Notes under the pieces: model-generated | The model's input: only the letters and a program-made list of their open reading frames with translations | What the model was told of the DNA's origin: nothing | The model's database searches: none | Program-made: the position numbers and the translations under genes | Part shown: in pieces, positions 3,776 through 20,964 of the stretch | How positions within the stretch are numbered: position 1 is the stretch's first letter | Layout: each line of letters opens with the position of its first letter | Source: a virus | IMG/VR virus record: IMGVR_UViG_3300020262_000001 | Coordinates: 1 to 20,964 of that record | DNA: 20,964 bases | Reading direction: 5' to 3' (one strand)

Positions 3776-3911
3776 TAAATTTTACCTGATTTTTTGAAAA
3801 AGAAATATCTGAGGATATTCTTTATTTATCTTTAAAATGTTAGATTTGAAATAGTATTGTTTTGGATGTTATCCGATACTATATTTTATTTATGATGGTT
3901 TTTTTTGCCAT
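3776..3911. other. 136-nt structured intergenic gap
   Basis: This gap lies between two large virion genes in an operon where most neighbours overlap. It holds two inverted repeats. At 3851-3882, atagtat pairs with atactat around an inner ggat/atcc with a three-base loop. At 3806-3821, aatatc pairs with gatatt around a four-base loop; read on the minus strand this is followed by a T-rich run. No coding sequence longer than about 10 codons on the minus strand fits here. A weak terminator or a transcript-processing site is possible, but the function is not known. Confidence 0.4.
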
Positions 3912-9316: not shown

Positions 9317-9769
9317 TTAATATATCCTCGCCATTCTTAAATAATCAGATTCATCTGGACCATAAAATTTCATTAAGCCTTCTGGTTTTAAACCCAACCA
9401 GGAAGCAAAACGTATTCCCATTTTGAAATCGTATTTAACTGTTGTTTGTAATCTTTTAATTTTATTTTTTTTGCAAAGTTCGTCTGTTCTTTTTTTAATT
9501 TCTCTACACGCCAAAAGCTTAACATTATAAATATTTTGATTTGCCATTACCCAGCCTTCAGCAACGCCTTTCCATAAAAGAATAATGCCTCCAGCTACAA
9601 CCGGTTTTTTATCAATAAATAAAGTGTAAGCATTTCCTTTATCAGCTTTGCAAATTCGATTATCTTTAAAGCTCGCATCCACTTCCATTAATTTTGAGTT
9701 CATCCCAAATGAAATAATTTCGTCAGCGTGACTTTGTTTAAAAGGTTTTATAATCCAATTACCCATCAT
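9317..9769 (-). CDS. T7 gp13-like protein (DUF2833, GNAT-like fold)
   Basis: About 150 residues. MGNWIIKPFKQSHADEI at the start, KPVVAGGIILLWKGVAEGWV in the middle, and IRFASWLGLKPEGLMKFYGP near the end form the pattern of the DUF2833 / phage T7 gp13 family. This family has an acetyltransferase-like fold and is needed for correct assembly of internal proteins in T7. I do not see evidence that it is an active enzyme. I place the start at the ATG at 9769, with the next ATG at 9766 equally possible. The open frame extends to a TTG at 9778, which I consider too far upstream. The start overlaps the end of tail tubular protein B by 11 bases. There is no clear Shine-Dalgarno sequence, so translation is probably coupled. 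Confidence 0.8.
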   Translation of the reverse strand: MMGNWIIKPFKQSHADEIISFGMNSKLMEVDASFKDNRICKADKGNAYTLFIDKKPVVAGGIILLWKGVAEGWVMANQNIYNVKLLACREIKKRTDELCKKNKIKRLQTTVKYDFKMGIRFASWLGLKPEGLMKFYGPDESDYLRMARIY

Positions 9770-12308
9770 GAGTAACAAGTTCAGGATAAATTGCTAAAAC
9801 ACTTAATGGCAAAGCTTGTTCTTGCTTAACCACGATATAACCGTCTGTGTCATAATCTCCCGGAAACTCTATTACCTTGTCACCTTCTAAAAAGGTACTG
9901 ACCGGTGTATCTAATGGATCTGAAGTTGTACGAAATGGAATTGAATCTAAATTTGTTAAACTGTTGCCTACCTTAGCACCAACAGTTTCAAAAAGTCTTA
10001 ATGTAACTTTGGATATTCTTTTAATTTTGCTTTGTGCGGTTCCGGCATATTCACCAGCTCCACCATCTAGTCGCATCGTCTGTAATATACTTGAGTACGC
10101 TAACCCCACTTTTACTTTTTTGGAGCTTCTATCTAATGTGATTGCTCCTGAACTAACCGTTTTGGTTGCGTGTGTAGCGCCATCTGCAAGGATGGTTACA
10201 GTTTCGCCTTCTAAATGTTCTAAACCTGTAATGCTTGTCGTTGCGGTTCCGTCATAACTTAAACCTGAATCTACAAAATGAAATACCTCTGGATCGGTTT
10301 CGTCAAAATCAAAATCTGAAAAAACTTCTACATAGCGTCTTGTTGTTCCGTTTATTGTTCTCTTACAAATACACCAAAGTTCATCTTCATTGAGCGAGCC
10401 TGATATTGATGCAATACTTTCAACAACCGAATTGCCTTCGCTTGTAACCGCAAGCCTTACATCGTCTGTGCTTGTAATAGTTAATAATCCAGCGCTATGA
10501 GTTGTTTCCCTGACTGTCACAACATTTGATGCTGGGTTTTCTACTGTAAAATCTTCGTGAGCATTAATCGCTGTATAAATATTATCGGCTGTCGTATCGT
10601 TATCCTGATTTGGTCTAAATCCTAATGTTTCATCTGGAGCTGTTCCTCCAGAAGATTCCGAAGTAAATGTTACCGATGTTCCATCGGATTTCGTTAATTT
10701 TAATTTTGTTCCAACTGAAATATTTGAATAGTCAGTTACCGTTATTGTGCATTCACCAAAATGACCGCCAAGTTTATGTCTGGTCCAAGCAACAACATTT
10801 TCAGATCTTTGGTAGCAAAGTGAACCAAGTACACCATCGTCTCTAACAACCCAGATTAAACTGTCCGGACTCTGTTGAAATTCCATTTCATTAACGCCGC
10901 TTTCTGTAACGGCATCATTGAGTATGGTTAAATCTGGAGCTACGTAAGAATCCTGGTCGAAATTATAAGCGAGTTCTCTTATTTTACGTTTTGCTCTTTG
11001 CAAAAAGATAACTGCATTTCCAACCGTTAAAGCATCAACGTTTGCGCTTCCATAGGAAGATTGTTTTTTAATCGTAATATTAGTTGGTGTAACAGCAGCG
11101 TCTGTGCCATCCGCCGATAAAGTATATTCACCGCCAGTTGTACCAATAATTAATGTACGTTGACTCTTCAAGTAGCGAATCGCATTTACAAAATTACTAG
11201 CTATCGTGTAAACCATTGCGTCAGCAGCATCCGTTCCGCTGGTCATGTTTTCATAATCTCCACTTTTGGAAAAGTAAAGAGTTTGAGGTTCATTTGAAGT
11301 AGCTGCAAAGACAAGTCGCTGTTCAAAAAAAGATACGCAAGATGGATGTCCAGTCGTATCGCTGAAGGCTCCTAAAGACCATGTGGTGCTTCCTGATCCA
11401 GTTGCGGCTTCAGTAATAGTCCAGGTGACTACTGTGCCACTTGTGTAAGCTGTAATCGTTCCCCAGCCGTCTCCCAATTCAACTTGTCTGCCAACATCGG
11501 TTGAAGCAAATAAACTTGAGGATGCCGTTAAGGTTCTTCCCGATCCGACTGTGGTTGCGCTTGTCGTTAAAGTTATTGCCGTTGTATTTTCAGAAAGAAA
11601 TGGACCTTTAGTAAAAGACACTTCTGATAAAGTCCACGAAGTATGTCCAGTTCTTTCCAATTTTGAAACTTCATGATTGGGATGCGTGATGTATAAAACA
11701 TCAGCGCTTTGAGCCGTCTTAATTTGAAATAATTCTGCGGTTAAATAATTTGTAGTAATTTGATAAATTTTATTTATAGTTCCAGCGGAGCTATAAGTAG
11801 AATAACCAGAAGTATCTACATTGTTTCCATCGACATCCTGTAATTCAAAAGTGTTGGTTGTTTTACTTGCAACTTTATAAGTCTTTCCATTGACTTGAGT
11901 CATTCCAGCAACTGCGGAAATTATAACAAAATCTCCATCACTGTAGCCGTGAGCTGTAGCTGTAACCACTCCTGGATTAGCTTTAGTTATTCCTGAAATA
12001 GTTATATCTCCCTCAAGGATTTGACCTTTATCTTTAAAGAATCTTATATAGCCGTTGCCAAATTCAAGCATATAAGTCTGTGTTGTGCTGAACTCAAACG
12101 GAATCAGTCTTGTTTTTAAACTACTGGTTTTAACTTCGCTTACAAATTTAGTTCCTATTCTTCTTGATGCCATTCCCTGAGGATGCACCATCATATTCTC
12201 TAAAGTTTTACAACCGGAGGAATACTTTTCGAAATCCGTTCTCCCCGAAAGCTTTGGACCAAATTCGCCAGCAACAAAGGAAGTTAAAGCTAGAGTTGTT
12301 TTTGCCAT
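9759..12308 (-). CDS. Tail tubular protein B (T7 gp12-like), 849 aa
   Basis: This is the nozzle of the short tail. The N-terminus is diagnostic: LTSFVAGEFGPKLSGRTD at residues 8-25, then KYSSGCKTLENMMVHPQG and TYMLEFGNGYIRFF. Later come ADVLYITHPNHE (202-213), RLVFAATSNEPQTLYFS (331-347) and ELWCICKRTINGTTRRYVEVF (643-663). Two extra domains appear inserted. About 100-176 (ITKANPGVVTATAHGYSDGD) is a module common in marine-phage versions. About 519-625 interrupts the stretch between KLGGHFG and VESIASISG with an independent beta-rich segment. The ATG at 12308 has only AT-rich sequence upstream and no Shine-Dalgarno match, unlike the capsid gene. A 147-nt noncoding gap with a plus-strand RNA candidate separates it from the 69-aa gene. 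Confidence 0.92.
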   Translation of the reverse strand: MAKTTLALTSFVAGEFGPKLSGRTDFEKYSSGCKTLENMMVHPQGMASRRIGTKFVSEVKTSSLKTRLIPFEFSTTQTYMLEFGNGYIRFFKDKGQILEGDITISGITKANPGVVTATAHGYSDGDFVIISAVAGMTQVNGKTYKVASKTTNTFELQDVDGNNVDTSGYSTYSSAGTINKIYQITTNYLTAELFQIKTAQSADVLYITHPNHEVSKLERTGHTSWTLSEVSFTKGPFLSENTTAITLTTSATTVGSGRTLTASSSLFASTDVGRQVELGDGWGTITAYTSGTVVTWTITEAATGSGSTTWSLGAFSDTTGHPSCVSFFEQRLVFAATSNEPQTLYFSKSGDYENMTSGTDAADAMVYTIASNFVNAIRYLKSQRTLIIGTTGGEYTLSADGTDAAVTPTNITIKKQSSYGSANVDALTVGNAVIFLQRAKRKIRELAYNFDQDSYVAPDLTILNDAVTESGVNEMEFQQSPDSLIWVVRDDGVLGSLCYQRSENVVAWTRHKLGGHFGECTITVTDYSNISVGTKLKLTKSDGTSVTFTSESSGGTAPDETLGFRPNQDNDTTADNIYTAINAHEDFTVENPASNVVTVRETTHSAGLLTITSTDDVRLAVTSEGNSVVESIASISGSLNEDELWCICKRTINGTTRRYVEVFSDFDFDETDPEVFHFVDSGLSYDGTATTSITGLEHLEGETVTILADGATHATKTVSSGAITLDRSSKKVKVGLAYSSILQTMRLDGGAGEYAGTAQSKIKRISKVTLRLFETVGAKVGNSLTNLDSIPFRTTSDPLDTPVSTFLEGDKVIEFPGDYDTDGYIVVKQEQALPLSVLAIYPELVTHDG

Positions 12309-12316
12309 ATAATTTT

Positions 12317-12345
12317 TTGACTATCTATCTGAGTAATTTATTAAT
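12317..12345 (+). promoter_or_regulatory. Candidate sigma70-type promoter for the plus-strand RNA
   Basis: TTGACT at 12317-12322 matches the -35 consensus in five of six bases. A -10-like element lies 16-17 bases further on (tattaa at 12339-12344 or attaat at 12340-12345, each four of six). The predicted start, about 12350-12352, coincides with the base of the long hairpin that follows. AT-rich DNA yields such matches by chance, so the evidence is mainly positional. Confidence 0.4.
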
Positions 12346-12349
12346 TATG

Positions 12350-12457
12350 TTAATTGGAACGACATAACCAAAAGGAGTAAAAAGTTGTTCTGATTAAAAC
12401 ACTATATACACAGCACAGAGGTGATTGGTTTTTGACGGATCAGTCACCTCTTTTTTT
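12350..12457 (+). ncRNA. Candidate small structured RNA, antisense to the operon direction
   Basis: About 108 nt, entirely inside the gap between the 69-aa gene and tail tubular protein B. Hairpin 1: TTAATTGGAACGAC (12350-12363) pairs with GTTGTTCTGATTAA (12384-12397), 14 bp including three G-U pairs. Its 20-nt loop shows AAGGAG at 12372-12377. A 19-nt A-rich linker follows. Hairpin 2: AGAGGTGATTGGTTT (12417-12431) pairs with GGATCAGTCACCTCT (12437-12451), 15 bp with up to four G-U pairs and a 5-nt loop, and runs straight into seven Ts. All wobbles become A-C mismatches if the minus strand is read, so the plus strand is the one that folds. The only coding overlap is two bases of the T tract with the stop codon of the 69-aa gene. 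No reading frame of more than a few codons is present. Function unknown. Confidence 0.7.
12417..12457 (+). terminator. Intrinsic terminator on the plus strand
   Basis: A 15-bp stem with a 5-nt loop (TTGAC) is followed immediately by TTTTTTT at 12451-12457. The outer eight pairs are perfect Watson-Crick (AGAGGTGA/TCACCTCT). On the minus strand the same stem is followed by GTGCTGTG with no T run, so it would stop transcripts moving left to right only, while all protein genes run right to left. Confidence 0.8.
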
Positions 12458-12665
12458 ATGCGTATTTCTTTTTCCAAATTTCTTTTTGGCTTAAATTTTT
12501 TTCATCGTCTTTTTGTTTTGTTTTGTGATCGATAATACCTGGATTAAATATTTCCACTAAAGCGTATCGATAAACCTTTTCAGATTTTCCCCATTGGAAA
12601 TGAATTAAGAATCTTGGTTCATTATACTGGGTAATATTTCTTGGATCGAATGCCGCTAAAGTCAT
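12456..12665 (-). CDS. Unknown 69-aa protein between tail tubular A and B
   Basis: I do not recognise this protein. It begins with a compact, possibly beta-rich half (residues 1-47, with FLIHFQWGKSEKVYRYALVE) and ends in a highly charged Lys/Asp/Glu-rich tail (48-69, KTKQKDDEKNLSQKEIWKKK). There is no signal peptide or membrane segment. The start overlaps the stop of tail tubular protein A by one base (TAATG), and the last codons of that gene supply a GAGG ribosome site. Position suggests a neck or tail accessory protein, but nothing in the sequence proves it. Its stop codon lies within the T tract of the opposing plus-strand terminator. Confidence 0.7.
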   Translation of the reverse strand: MTLAAFDPRNITQYNEPRFLIHFQWGKSEKVYRYALVEIFNPGIIDHKTKQKDDEKNLSQKEIWKKKYA

Positions 12666-13467: not shown

Positions 13468-13492
13468 TATTTTTTTGTAAATTTATTTGAAA

Positions 13493-13518
13493 GACCTGGC
13501 GGATTTCTCCGCCAAGTC
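13493..13518 (-). terminator. Hairpin after the capsid genes, terminator-like
   Basis: On the minus strand GACTTGGCGGA and TCCGCCAGGTC form an 11-bp stem closed by a GAAA tetraloop. One U-G pair forms only in the minus-strand sense. It is followed by TTTC and an AT-rich stretch rather than a pure T run, so termination is probably partial. The position, just after the capsid-decoration block and before tail genes, is like that of the T7 late terminator after gene 10. It could equally serve as an RNA-stability or processing hairpin. Confidence 0.6.
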
Positions 13519-13527
13519 AGTTAATGC

Positions 13528-18255: not shown

Positions 18256-19527
18256 TCATATTAATTTAACCTCGCTTATCGCTGTTCTTTGTCTATTCAT
18301 ATTTGTTAACCTTTGTTCTTGAAATCCTGTGGCTAAAATCATTGCTGAATCTGCAAAATGACTTGACCAATCATGCACAGGCTTTGTTTTAAATACTCTA
18401 TCCTTCTCAGAATATTTGCGGTGATAATGCCTTAAAGCATCAATCAACGGCTTGCATTTATCCACGTCAAAAAAACATCGATTCAAAATCATCTTTAATG
18501 CGTGGATGGCATCCTCTTTTATAGTTCTTGGAGCTACACGAAACCTAATGCCGTGTTCGTAAGCTACCTCACGCCTGGTTCGACCTGAGCTGTACTCGCT
18601 AACCTCTATGTCAAACGGCGCAAAATGATTTCCATAAAAATATTCCTTATCTTTTAAAATCTCGGCATAGAAAGGAAATGGCTTGTTTCGATCTGCAAAG
18701 CAATCAATAATATTTATTTGATGACCAACTTCCTGAAAAAAAATAATTGCCGTGTCATCGTTGTATCCAATATCCCAAGCCGTATGCGTTAACAAAGAAC
18801 GGTCATGCGGAACACTGGTTAATTGTTTTTTGTCATCCAAATCCTCTATTTCTTTTCCAAAGATAGAACCTGGATAATCGCCAACCCACGAACAGTTAAA
18901 TTCCTGATCGTACTTGGCTTTTCCCATCATTTGCAAAGCCTGATCAAGTTCTTCCTGGTCCACGATTTTTGTCTCAGAAGCCTTAGCCGTATAGCTAAAC
19001 CATTTCTTATCGCCTTTTGCTTTAAGATAATAATTATAGAAAGTTGATTGCATACCTTGTGGAGTACCAATCAGATACATAAAACCTTTTCTATCCGATA
19101 AGGCTGGAGTTAAAACCTCTTCTATTAAAGAAGCTGGTATCTGACTCATTTCGTCTATGATTACGCCGTTGTAATAATTACCACGAAGATTATCAAAAGA
19201 TTCTGCGCCAAGTAATGTAATCCTTCCACCATTTACAAAGTCGGCTCTTAATTCTGTTTCATTAAATTTAGTACCAGGAATTTTCCCAGCGTAAAATTTT
19301 AAAAAATCCCAAGCTATACTTTTGCTTTGTTTATAGGTTGGACTTATAAAACTGTATCTCGGATTGTGATCCTTACAGGTCAAACAGCGTCTAATTAATT
19401 CATTAAGACACATTGTTGTTTTGCCAAACCGCCTGTGGCAAAGTAATAATGCGTATCTATAACTTTGCAAACTTTTATGTAAATAAGCTTGTTGTAGTCT
19501 CGGTGTATATGGAATTTTAATTTTCAT
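18256..19527 (-). CDS. terL: Terminase large subunit, 423 aa
   Basis: This is the packaging motor and headful/cos nuclease. ATPase domain: Walker A CHRRFGKTT at 30-38, Walker B GVIIDEM at 121-127 with the catalytic Glu after Asp, and coupling motif IGTPQG at 153-158. Nuclease domain (RNase H fold): first acidic site D252 in WDIGYNDD, second D306 in APFDIEV, third D393 in HFADSAM. All key residues are present, so it should be active. It is shorter than T7 gp19 (586 aa) and of the HRRFGKT type common in marine phages. The ATG at 19527 overlaps the Dam gene by 11 bases. In T7 the large terminase lies at the far end of the late genes; here it precedes the portal. Confidence 0.95.
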   Translation of the reverse strand: MKIKIPYTPRLQQAYLHKSLQSYRYALLLCHRRFGKTTMCLNELIRRCLTCKDHNPRYSFISPTYKQSKSIAWDFLKFYAGKIPGTKFNETELRADFVNGGRITLLGAESFDNLRGNYYNGVIIDEMSQIPASLIEEVLTPALSDRKGFMYLIGTPQGMQSTFYNYYLKAKGDKKWFSYTAKASETKIVDQEELDQALQMMGKAKYDQEFNCSWVGDYPGSIFGKEIEDLDDKKQLTSVPHDRSLLTHTAWDIGYNDDTAIIFFQEVGHQINIIDCFADRNKPFPFYAEILKDKEYFYGNHFAPFDIEVSEYSSGRTRREVAYEHGIRFRVAPRTIKEDAIHALKMILNRCFFDVDKCKPLIDALRHYHRKYSEKDRVFKTKPVHDWSSHFADSAMILATGFQEQRLTNMNRQRTAISEVKLI

Positions 19528-19972
19528 TTCTTAAAACAAAACAAGCTATATGCCGACCTGTACCTTTACCTGGAGTTTTATCTTCGGTTGATAACCATTT
19601 AACATCTCCAAGATTTCTAACTTCGGCTCCAGCTTTTAAAAGCATAAGAACCCATTTATCTATCGGATAAACTAAAACAACCTTCTTGCCTTTTTCATTT
19701 TCAGATAAGGCTTTTCTAACCCAAGCGGTTACACCTTTTTTCTTTCCTTTATGTATAATGGAACCAAAAGGCGGATTAACATAATTTGAATTTTTCCAAT
19801 CAACCTCTAAACCGTCAAAGTCATCAGGTTTAGGAAATGGACAAGGATCAAAATCAAACTTAAATTCTTTATTTAGAGTTTCGTAAAGATCAGGTGGTGT
19901 TAGCCAATAATGTTTTCCATCTACACCATTACCTTTATGAAATTTATTATCTTTTGGCTTAATCTTTTTCAC
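19517..19972 (-). CDS. dam: Phage DNA N6-adenine methyltransferase (Dam type), 151 aa
   Basis: The protein transfers a methyl group from S-adenosylmethionine to adenine in DNA. The pattern WLTPPDLY at 23-30, FDFDPCPFP at 39-47 and the catalytic-type motif YVNPPFG at 64-70 fits the small phage Dam family (DNA N-6-adenine-methyltransferase, PF05869 type). The length of about 150 aa is at the short end of that family, but both key regions are present. The start is GTG at 19972, directly after the TAA of the 59-aa gene, with no Shine-Dalgarno site, so it probably relies on coupling. Likely use: protection from host restriction, or marking of phage DNA. The target site cannot be read from the sequence. 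Confidence 0.82.
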   Translation of the reverse strand: MKKIKPKDNKFHKGNGVDGKHYWLTPPDLYETLNKEFKFDFDPCPFPKPDDFDGLEVDWKNSNYVNPPFGSIIHKGKKKGVTAWVRKALSENEKGKKVVLVYPIDKWVLMLLKAGAEVRNLGDVKWLSTEDKTPGKGTGRHIACFVLRNEN

Positions 19973-20152: not shown

Positions 20153-20255
20153 AGCCTTTATCTCTGTTAATCCATCTTTTATTCCAGGACCACGTGCTTA
20201 ACCTGGAGCTTAACCGTTCTATAATTTCTAATATGTGATCAATGACTTCGTTCAT
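20136..20255 (-). CDS. Unknown 39-aa protein with WSWNKRW motif
   Basis: The frame runs from the ATG at 20255 to the TAA at 20136. The N-terminus is an amphipathic helix (MNEVIDHILEIIERLSSRL) and the C-terminus is basic and aromatic (WSWNKRWINRDKGYGYK). Very small phage proteins with a similar W-x-W-x-KRW, then R-x-x-G ending are familiar to me from podophages, but I know of no function. It overlaps the cytosine methyltransferase end by 17 bases and the 59-aa gene by 17 bases in other frames, typical of a packed phage operon. Confidence 0.5.
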   Translation of the reverse strand: MNEVIDHILEIIERLSSRLSTWSWNKRWINRDKGYGYKK

Positions 20256-20964
20256 TTTCCGCTGCCAATATTGCCTTTGCTATTTCGTAGGCAATTTCCG
20301 GTACGATTGAGTTTCCGAGTGCTTTAATTCTGTTGGCTCGATTTTTGTCCAGTCCTGTGCATATCCCATCAGGAATTCCACGAAGTTTTGATTCAATTTG
20401 CCACCAACTTTCGGTTGTTGATAGCCTTGATCTTCCGCCTGTTTTGTTATCTTCGAAACTAAATCGTCTCCTTTCCAGTTCTTTGACATTCGTCTTTGAT
20501 GATAATCCGATGCTGCTGGAGTTGGATACATTTTGTGAACTGCATCCTTCAGCTTCACTCCGAAGCGAACTCCTTTTTTGTTCAGTCTGCTGAAACTTCC
20601 GTTCTTCAATTCCACATTCTTCACTACTCCGCCTTCCAGGTCGCAAGCTCTTGGAGTTGGATACATTACATCCGATGACGAAAATTCTCTTACGTTGATG
20701 CCAAGCACCGACACCTGAAGCTGGAATAATAAGACATTGGACTTGGAAGCCTTCGCTTTCCAAATCTTTCTGTATCTGCTGCAAGACTTTACCGTTTTCG
20801 ATGTTAATAATTCCTGCAACATTTTCGCCAACAATCCACCTTGCTTTGACTTCGGTAATAACTCTAAGCATTTCATCCCAGAGGTATCGGTCGTCATCTG
20901 TTCCTTTTCTTTTTCCTGCAACCGAGAACGGTTGGCATGGGAATCCTCCAGTAACGACATCTGC
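20239..20964 (-). CDS. dcm: DNA (cytosine-5) methyltransferase, C-terminal part (cut by window edge)
   Basis: The frame is open from the window edge at 20964 to the TGA at 20239, 241 residues. It starts inside the protein: GGFPCQPFSVAGKRKG with the catalytic Cys in motif IV (residue 10), GENVAG (motif VI, 46-51), and QRKRIFVIG (motif VIII, 90-98). A low-complexity variable region follows with two VSNS segments (101-104, 146-149), then NRIKALGNSIVPEIA (motifs IX-X, 211-225). Only motif I and the SAM-binding start are missing, beyond the edge. All visible catalytic motifs are intact, so there is no sign of a pseudogene. An ATG at 20871 is internal and not the true start. With the Dam gene nearby it probably modifies phage DNA against host restriction. 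Confidence 0.88.
   Translation of the reverse strand, partial: ADVVTGGFPCQPFSVAGKRKGTDDDRYLWDEMLRVITEVKARWIVGENVAGIINIENGKVLQQIQKDLESEGFQVQCLIIPASGVGAWHQRKRIFVIGCNVSNSKSLRPGRRSSEECGIEERKFQQTEQKRSSLRSEAEGCSSQNVSNSSSIGLSSKTNVKELERRRFSFEDNKTGGRSRLSTTESWWQIESKLRGIPDGICTGLDKNRANRIKALGNSIVPEIAYEIAKAILAAENERSH

Follow-up and report, generated by a model that had tools for sequence, protein, structure and literature searches.

A predicted two-hairpin small RNA inserted against the late genes of HTVC010P-like marine podophages

The window analyzed herein is a whole IMG/VR record of 20,964 bases from an HTVC010P-like podophage. The genes for terminase, portal, capsid, TTPA and TTPB and the large late genes are all on the minus strand. 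A plus-strand RNA element is predicted in the gap that separates TTPB from the small gene orf69 (Table 1). The closest named relatives of the phage are pelagiphages, the phages of SAR11 bacteria, with about 57% TTPB identity. TTPB relatives at 68-76% identity were found in Pelagibacteraceae single-cell genomes, and a relative at 62% was found in one Ascidiaceihabitans genome. From these relatives we infer that the host order is Pelagibacterales.

Table 1 Coordinates of the predicted RNA element, its parts and the genes discussed with it.
Feature	Position in window	Strand	Remarks
Clade-specific insertion, 147 bp, orf69 stop to TTPB start	12309..12455		Gap only in carriers
Tail tubular protein B (TTPB)	9759..12308	-	phrog_376; leader without Shine-Dalgarno match
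orf69, small gene between TTPA and TTPB	12456..12665	-	
Putative sigma-70-type promoter	12317..12344	+	TTGACT 12317-12322, 16 nt, TATTAA 12339-12344
Predicted non-coding RNA, about 108 nt	12350..12457	+	No ORF common to (conserved among) the three versions
Hairpin 1	12350..12397	+	Stem sequence variable, loop UAACCAA(A/U)AGGAGUAAA conserved
Single-stranded linker AACACUAUAUACACAGCAC, 19 nt	12398..12416	+	
Intrinsic terminator, hairpin 2 + U7	12417..12457	+	15-bp stem
Bbp19-like gene, 71 aa	15977..16192	-	PF25181; weak candidate trans target at start region

The orf69/TTPA-TTPB junction measured 145-149 nt in the carriers of the element versus about -29 to +5 in all other measured relatives. 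In the TTPB-based sample, three carriers had the gap and the other relatives had -29 to +3. The MCP-based sample agreed: no gap exceeded 5 at any junction of which the two sides could be located. Among relatives lacking the insert, the nearest ones have an 8-nt overlap of orf69 with TTPB. The element was absent from relatives with a TTPB identity of 77% or less and present in all of the closest relatives (92-98%). An earlier reading of the window, made from its sequence only, had named absence of the hairpins from close relatives as an observation that would speak against a small RNA; the hairpins were found in every one of the closest relatives. By parsimony, the element would have been gained once in the clade by insertion, rather than lost elsewhere. 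The ancestor of a small HTVC010P-like clade would then have gained the 147 bp between orf69 and TTPB. The insert lies between genes that are adjacent in relatives; with its predicted transcription of its own, it is a candidate 'moron'. Judged from the sequence, the insertion moved the TTPB start away from the stop of orf69, and TTPB now has no Shine-Dalgarno match (score +0.1 kcal/mol). Lacking both the orf69 overlap and a Shine-Dalgarno sequence, TTPB is unlike most genes of the window, and its start may be leaderless or follow processing.

The positions of TTGACT, the two hairpins, the linker and the T run were re-derived from the sequence and agreed with those given by the sequence-only reading. 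The arms of hairpin 1 are at 12350-12363 and 12384-12397 (14 bp, 20-nt loop). Those of hairpin 2 are at 12417-12431 and 12437-12451 (15 bp, 5-nt loop), with the T run at 12451-12457. Folding of the plus strand gave an MFE of -33.3 with z = -3.2 (1 of 200 shuffles was equally good) versus -24.1 with z = -1.6 for the minus strand of the same region. Hairpin 2 has the longest stem of all terminator-like sites in a scan of the window, with 15 pairs versus 8 for the runner-up. Together with T6 it scored -19.9 kcal/mol versus -15.4 for the best of 40 shuffled windows. A U run follows hairpin 2 on its 3' side on the plus strand only. The element carries its own terminator (hairpin and U run), as is expected of an intrinsically terminated phage small RNA. 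As had been proposed, this terminator opposes the operon: it is on the plus strand, and the genes of recognised families are all on the minus strand.

The proposed promoter was borne out only in part. TTGACT is present on the plus strand at 12317 and is a 5/6 match to the -35 element, but the -10 candidates TATTAA (16 nt away) and ATTAAT (17 nt away) each match in only 4 of 6 positions. The match is 9/12 overall, with no excess over chance: the AT-rich window has 52 sigma-70-like sites versus 62 expected by chance. Both hexamers are retained in the most divergent version of the element. The putative sigma-70-type promoter is the weakest part of the proposed gene.

Besides the window, five other viral contigs were found with the element (L001/L124, L002/L112, L003, L095/L215, and L146), some of them recorded twice in opposite orientations. 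The six contigs hold three distinct sequence versions, of which the L003 version is the most divergent. Identity between L003 and the window was 86% in the flanking coding DNA, 93% in the linker and terminator, and 66% in hairpin 1. In a structure-based alignment, which was itself fitted to the structure, 15 of the 28 letters of stem 1 were identical and 13 were changed. All 14 pairs of the stem were retained in L003 with one 5-nt bulge; five pairs were changed on both sides, three were changed on one side, and none was broken. When the L003 version was folded alone, the same 11-bp core of hairpin 1 and the same terminator were obtained, and a gap-free alignment of the inner 11 stem-1 pairs had four of them changed on both sides. 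Hairpin 2 of L112 has lost a G-U pair, with one letter deleted from each arm. In the single-stranded parts, 16 of the 20 columns of the hairpin-1 loop and 16 of the 19 columns of the linker were identical between the window and L003.

Across the three versions, 85 of 85 cells of that alignment were paired, versus 33-58% in the slid-partner controls. The non-Watson-Crick cells (19/85, at 8 positions) were all G-U, and A-C was never found. G-U pairs without any A-C exception indicate that the selected structure is that of the plus strand. The six to seven G-U pairs that had been counted on the plus strand only were recounted as three in hairpin 1 and four in hairpin 2 of the window version. The alignment of the gap contains compensatory changes of the kind that the sequence-only reading had suggested as a check, and its non-Watson-Crick pairs favour the plus strand; within three versions, the RNA structure is conserved with compensatory change. 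Coming from three versions only, the covariation support is good, not overwhelming. The compensatory changes, the G-U-only exceptions and the conserved single-stranded parts together give good support to a structured, self-terminated RNA on the plus strand, as the sequence-only reading had proposed. The predicted product is probably a regulatory phage small RNA of two hairpins that runs against all neighbouring genes, and the element is likely a small-RNA gene, with a putative promoter and predicted transcription.

No tRNA was found in the element, and Rfam covariance models gave 0 matches at the gathering score and 0 at E<=5. A coding role was rejected, as the versions share no ORF. The covariance search suggested earlier could be carried out, and it returned no member beyond the five other carrier contigs; the models were run over TTPB and MCP relatives and over pattern-hit loci. 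The covariance model also did not find the element in 7 genomes carrying phage relatives. The element was not found in 197 genomes of the host order either, but here the filters were stricter and no positive control was included, so that this negative result is weak evidence. When the loop, linker, terminator and promoter were used as exact patterns, scans of IMG/VR returned the same five carriers and chance matches. The matches to the 17-mer of the loop were mostly ordinary gene starts, and the linker match in L176 came from an unrelated GC-rich virus; both were rejected. Distant blastn searches in phages gave chance AT-rich matches only.

In the likely host order, Hfq was found in 0 of 97 genomes and CsrA was over the cut-off in 0 of 97, with positive controls in both searches. 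The host Hfq on which an Hfq-dependent trans small RNA relies, and the host CsrA that a CsrA-sequestering RNA would bind, were both not found in this inferred order. RNase III was found in 29 of 30 genomes.

The element is opposite to the minus-strand operon and is, by position, a full complement of the intercistronic part between orf69 and TTPB. From the gene order, a late mRNA would be expected to cross this gap. The element had been described as not antisense to any coding sequence. This stands as far as coding sequence is concerned, as the RNA overlaps orf69 only in the last two bases of the stop codon, but the description misses the full complement that the intercistronic late mRNA would provide.

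Antisense precedents are known in P22 sar, lambda OOP and lambda aQ (PMC12197685, PMC5415839). The reading that we prefer, tentatively as to both target and effect, is that the element would be an Hfq-independent antisense RNA that acts on its own late mRNA. Transcription by host RNA polymerase would begin on the plus strand near 12350 and end at the 15-bp terminator. The product would be stable and about 108 nt long, consisting of a 5' hairpin with its purine-rich loop exposed, an unpaired linker and finally the terminator hairpin. The mRNA of the late operon, once made, would contain a perfectly complementary stretch between orf69 and TTPB, and contacts of the loop or the linker would initiate pairing with it. 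The duplex would then be cut by host RNase III, or read-through from TTPA/orf69 to TTPB would be halted, and TTPB would be uncoupled from upstream expression. Phages of the HTVC010P type probably depend on the RNA polymerase of the host (PMC10504331), which fits a sigma-70-type promoter. The presence of RNase III and the absence of Hfq in the likely host order suit extended antisense pairing. Because the late mRNA would hold an exact complement, nothing more has to be assumed for antisense action on the own operon, and Hfq is not required for it.

The sequence-only reading had taken action in trans, on another phage or host mRNA, as the simplest explanation. The linker and/or the loop of hairpin 1 would do the pairing, and both are conserved while stem 1 drifts. 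A purely cis-acting RNA needs no conserved loop or linker, because its complement changes along with the RNA; the conservation points to a fixed partner and against a purely cis role. The distance of 41 nt between the RNA and the TTPB start also fits such a role poorly. However, an antisense action in cis is no less simple, since the TTPA-to-TTPB mRNA would hold a perfect complement, and the likely hosts are apparently without Hfq. An RNA acting in trans is the main rival reading, and we consider it somewhat less likely than the cis-antisense one. The best phage candidate, which is weakly supported, is the Bbp19-like gene at about -27 to -10, where pairing would block translation. Its start is the best non-self site of the linker (-13.6 for the window and -18.1 for the L003/L215 version), and in a comparison of 12 gene starts the summed energy was not reached by any of 500 paired column shuffles. 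Near relatives that belong to insert-free TTPB groups show weaker pairing there, at about -5 to -9. Against this, shuffled linkers were as good in 50 of 60 cases in a whole-window scan for the window, although in only 1 of 60 for L215, and the co-folding energy of the window pair was unremarkable, with 21 of 199 controls as good. The site is also within the portal coding sequence, which gives its conservation another cause, and the linker and loop were picked for testing after the structure was known. Pairing of the hairpin-1 loop with the Bbp19-like start is lost in L215 and was rejected. The pairing of the linker with this start may be regarded as a lead rather than a result. The Bbp19-like gene sits between portal and scaffold, and its start overlaps the 3' end of portal.

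The strong terminator opposing the operon and the weak promoter match would also be consistent with an insulator, which would do no more than keep stray antisense transcripts from extending up the operon, with hairpin 1 being incidental. We judge this improbable, as it leaves the covarying hairpin 1 and the conserved loop and linker unexplained, and all measured relatives manage without such a terminator. It is quite improbable that the minus-strand form of the structure is the active one, serving processing or translation of TTPB in the late mRNA leader. Such an element would adjoin TTPB upstream, where this gene has neither the orf69 overlap nor a Shine-Dalgarno match, but every one of the 19 G-U exceptions of the plus strand would turn into a C-A mismatch in the minus-strand RNA, and the minus strand has the weaker fold z and no U run after the hairpin. 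Both the cis and the trans action might be combined: a lytic marine podophage clade would have gained a non-coding 'moron' acting on the TTPA-TTPB mRNA and, via the linker, on the Bbp19-like start, balancing virion parts in hosts without Hfq and CsrA. This combination is decidedly improbable. As a discrete insertion of 147 bp that holds two hairpins, the unit could be what is left of a small mobile element whose ends were hairpins; with no terminal repeats or target-site duplication on inspection, a single copy in the window and none elsewhere in the searched sequences, this is very improbable. The loop contains AGGAG and could pair with the tail of a generic 16S rRNA (-8.8 and -6.8 kcal/mol), and GGA also occurs at the tip of hairpin 2, so that the RNA might display a GGA or Shine-Dalgarno motif as a decoy for CsrA or ribosomes. 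This is hardly credible, given the CsrA result above, the enormous amounts that a ribosome decoy would require, and a frequency of the loop 17-mer in IMG/VR that is close to a rough chance estimate.

The antisense reading on the own late mRNA may be compared with known systems. P22 sar (with Sas RNA) is likewise short, intercistronic, against its operon and antisense by position (PMC12197685, PMC2629481). However, sar is 68/69 nt long, blocks ant translation and belongs to a temperate immunity region, whereas the predicted RNA here is about 108 nt and lies among tail genes. Sar covers the start region of its target; the RNA here, with its 5' end 41 nt upstream of the TTPB start, stops short of that start and leaves the region uncovered. 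Lambda OOP is likewise small, terminated and antisense to an operon, and it acts with RNase III, without the need to cover the ribosome site (PMC5415839, PMC12197685). OOP is 77 nt and complementary to the 3' end of cII, whereas the complement here is an untranslated gap; the likeness would be one of action, and no relation in sequence is implied. CfrI of cyanophage S-PM2 is likewise an intergenic antisense RNA of a marine phage (PMC12197685), but that phage is T4-like, and CfrI is about 225 nt long and associated with psbA and a homing endonuclease. HTVC010P, HTVC034P and Skadi have the gene order and tail proteins of the window, but in them this junction has no gap and no such RNA. The Skadi paper found no terminators or RNA switches (PMC10504331).

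No paper on small RNAs of pelagiphages was found in the literature searched. As Pelagibacterales are apparently without Hfq and CsrA, an RNA regulator there must work without the usual chaperones. Being compact, confined to one clade and readily deleted or sought in metatranscriptomes, the element lends itself to testing RNA regulation directly in phages whose hosts are streamlined. The RNA is new and its kind is already known; it is notable for its phage group and hosts.

Other features of the window were also observed. In the gap at 3776-3911, between two large minus-strand genes, the plus strand folds at -23.2 versus -10.8 kcal/mol for the minus strand, and a hairpin AATAGTATTG...CGATACTAT is followed by ATTTT. 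This gap is a possible second plus-strand unit. At 13468-13527 on the minus strand, directly downstream of a 173-aa head gene, an 11-bp GC-rich hairpin GACTTGGCGGA-GAAA-TCCGCCAGGTC is followed by TTTCAAATAAATTT; it is probably a partial late terminator or a processing hairpin after the capsid genes. Fragments of a Dam-like N6-adenine methyltransferase and of a C5-cytosine methylase are located at 19517-19972 and 20239-20960, respectively. The cytosine methylase is in two overlapping reading frames at the end of the record, and this end is 83% identical to the uncultured phage KT997847.
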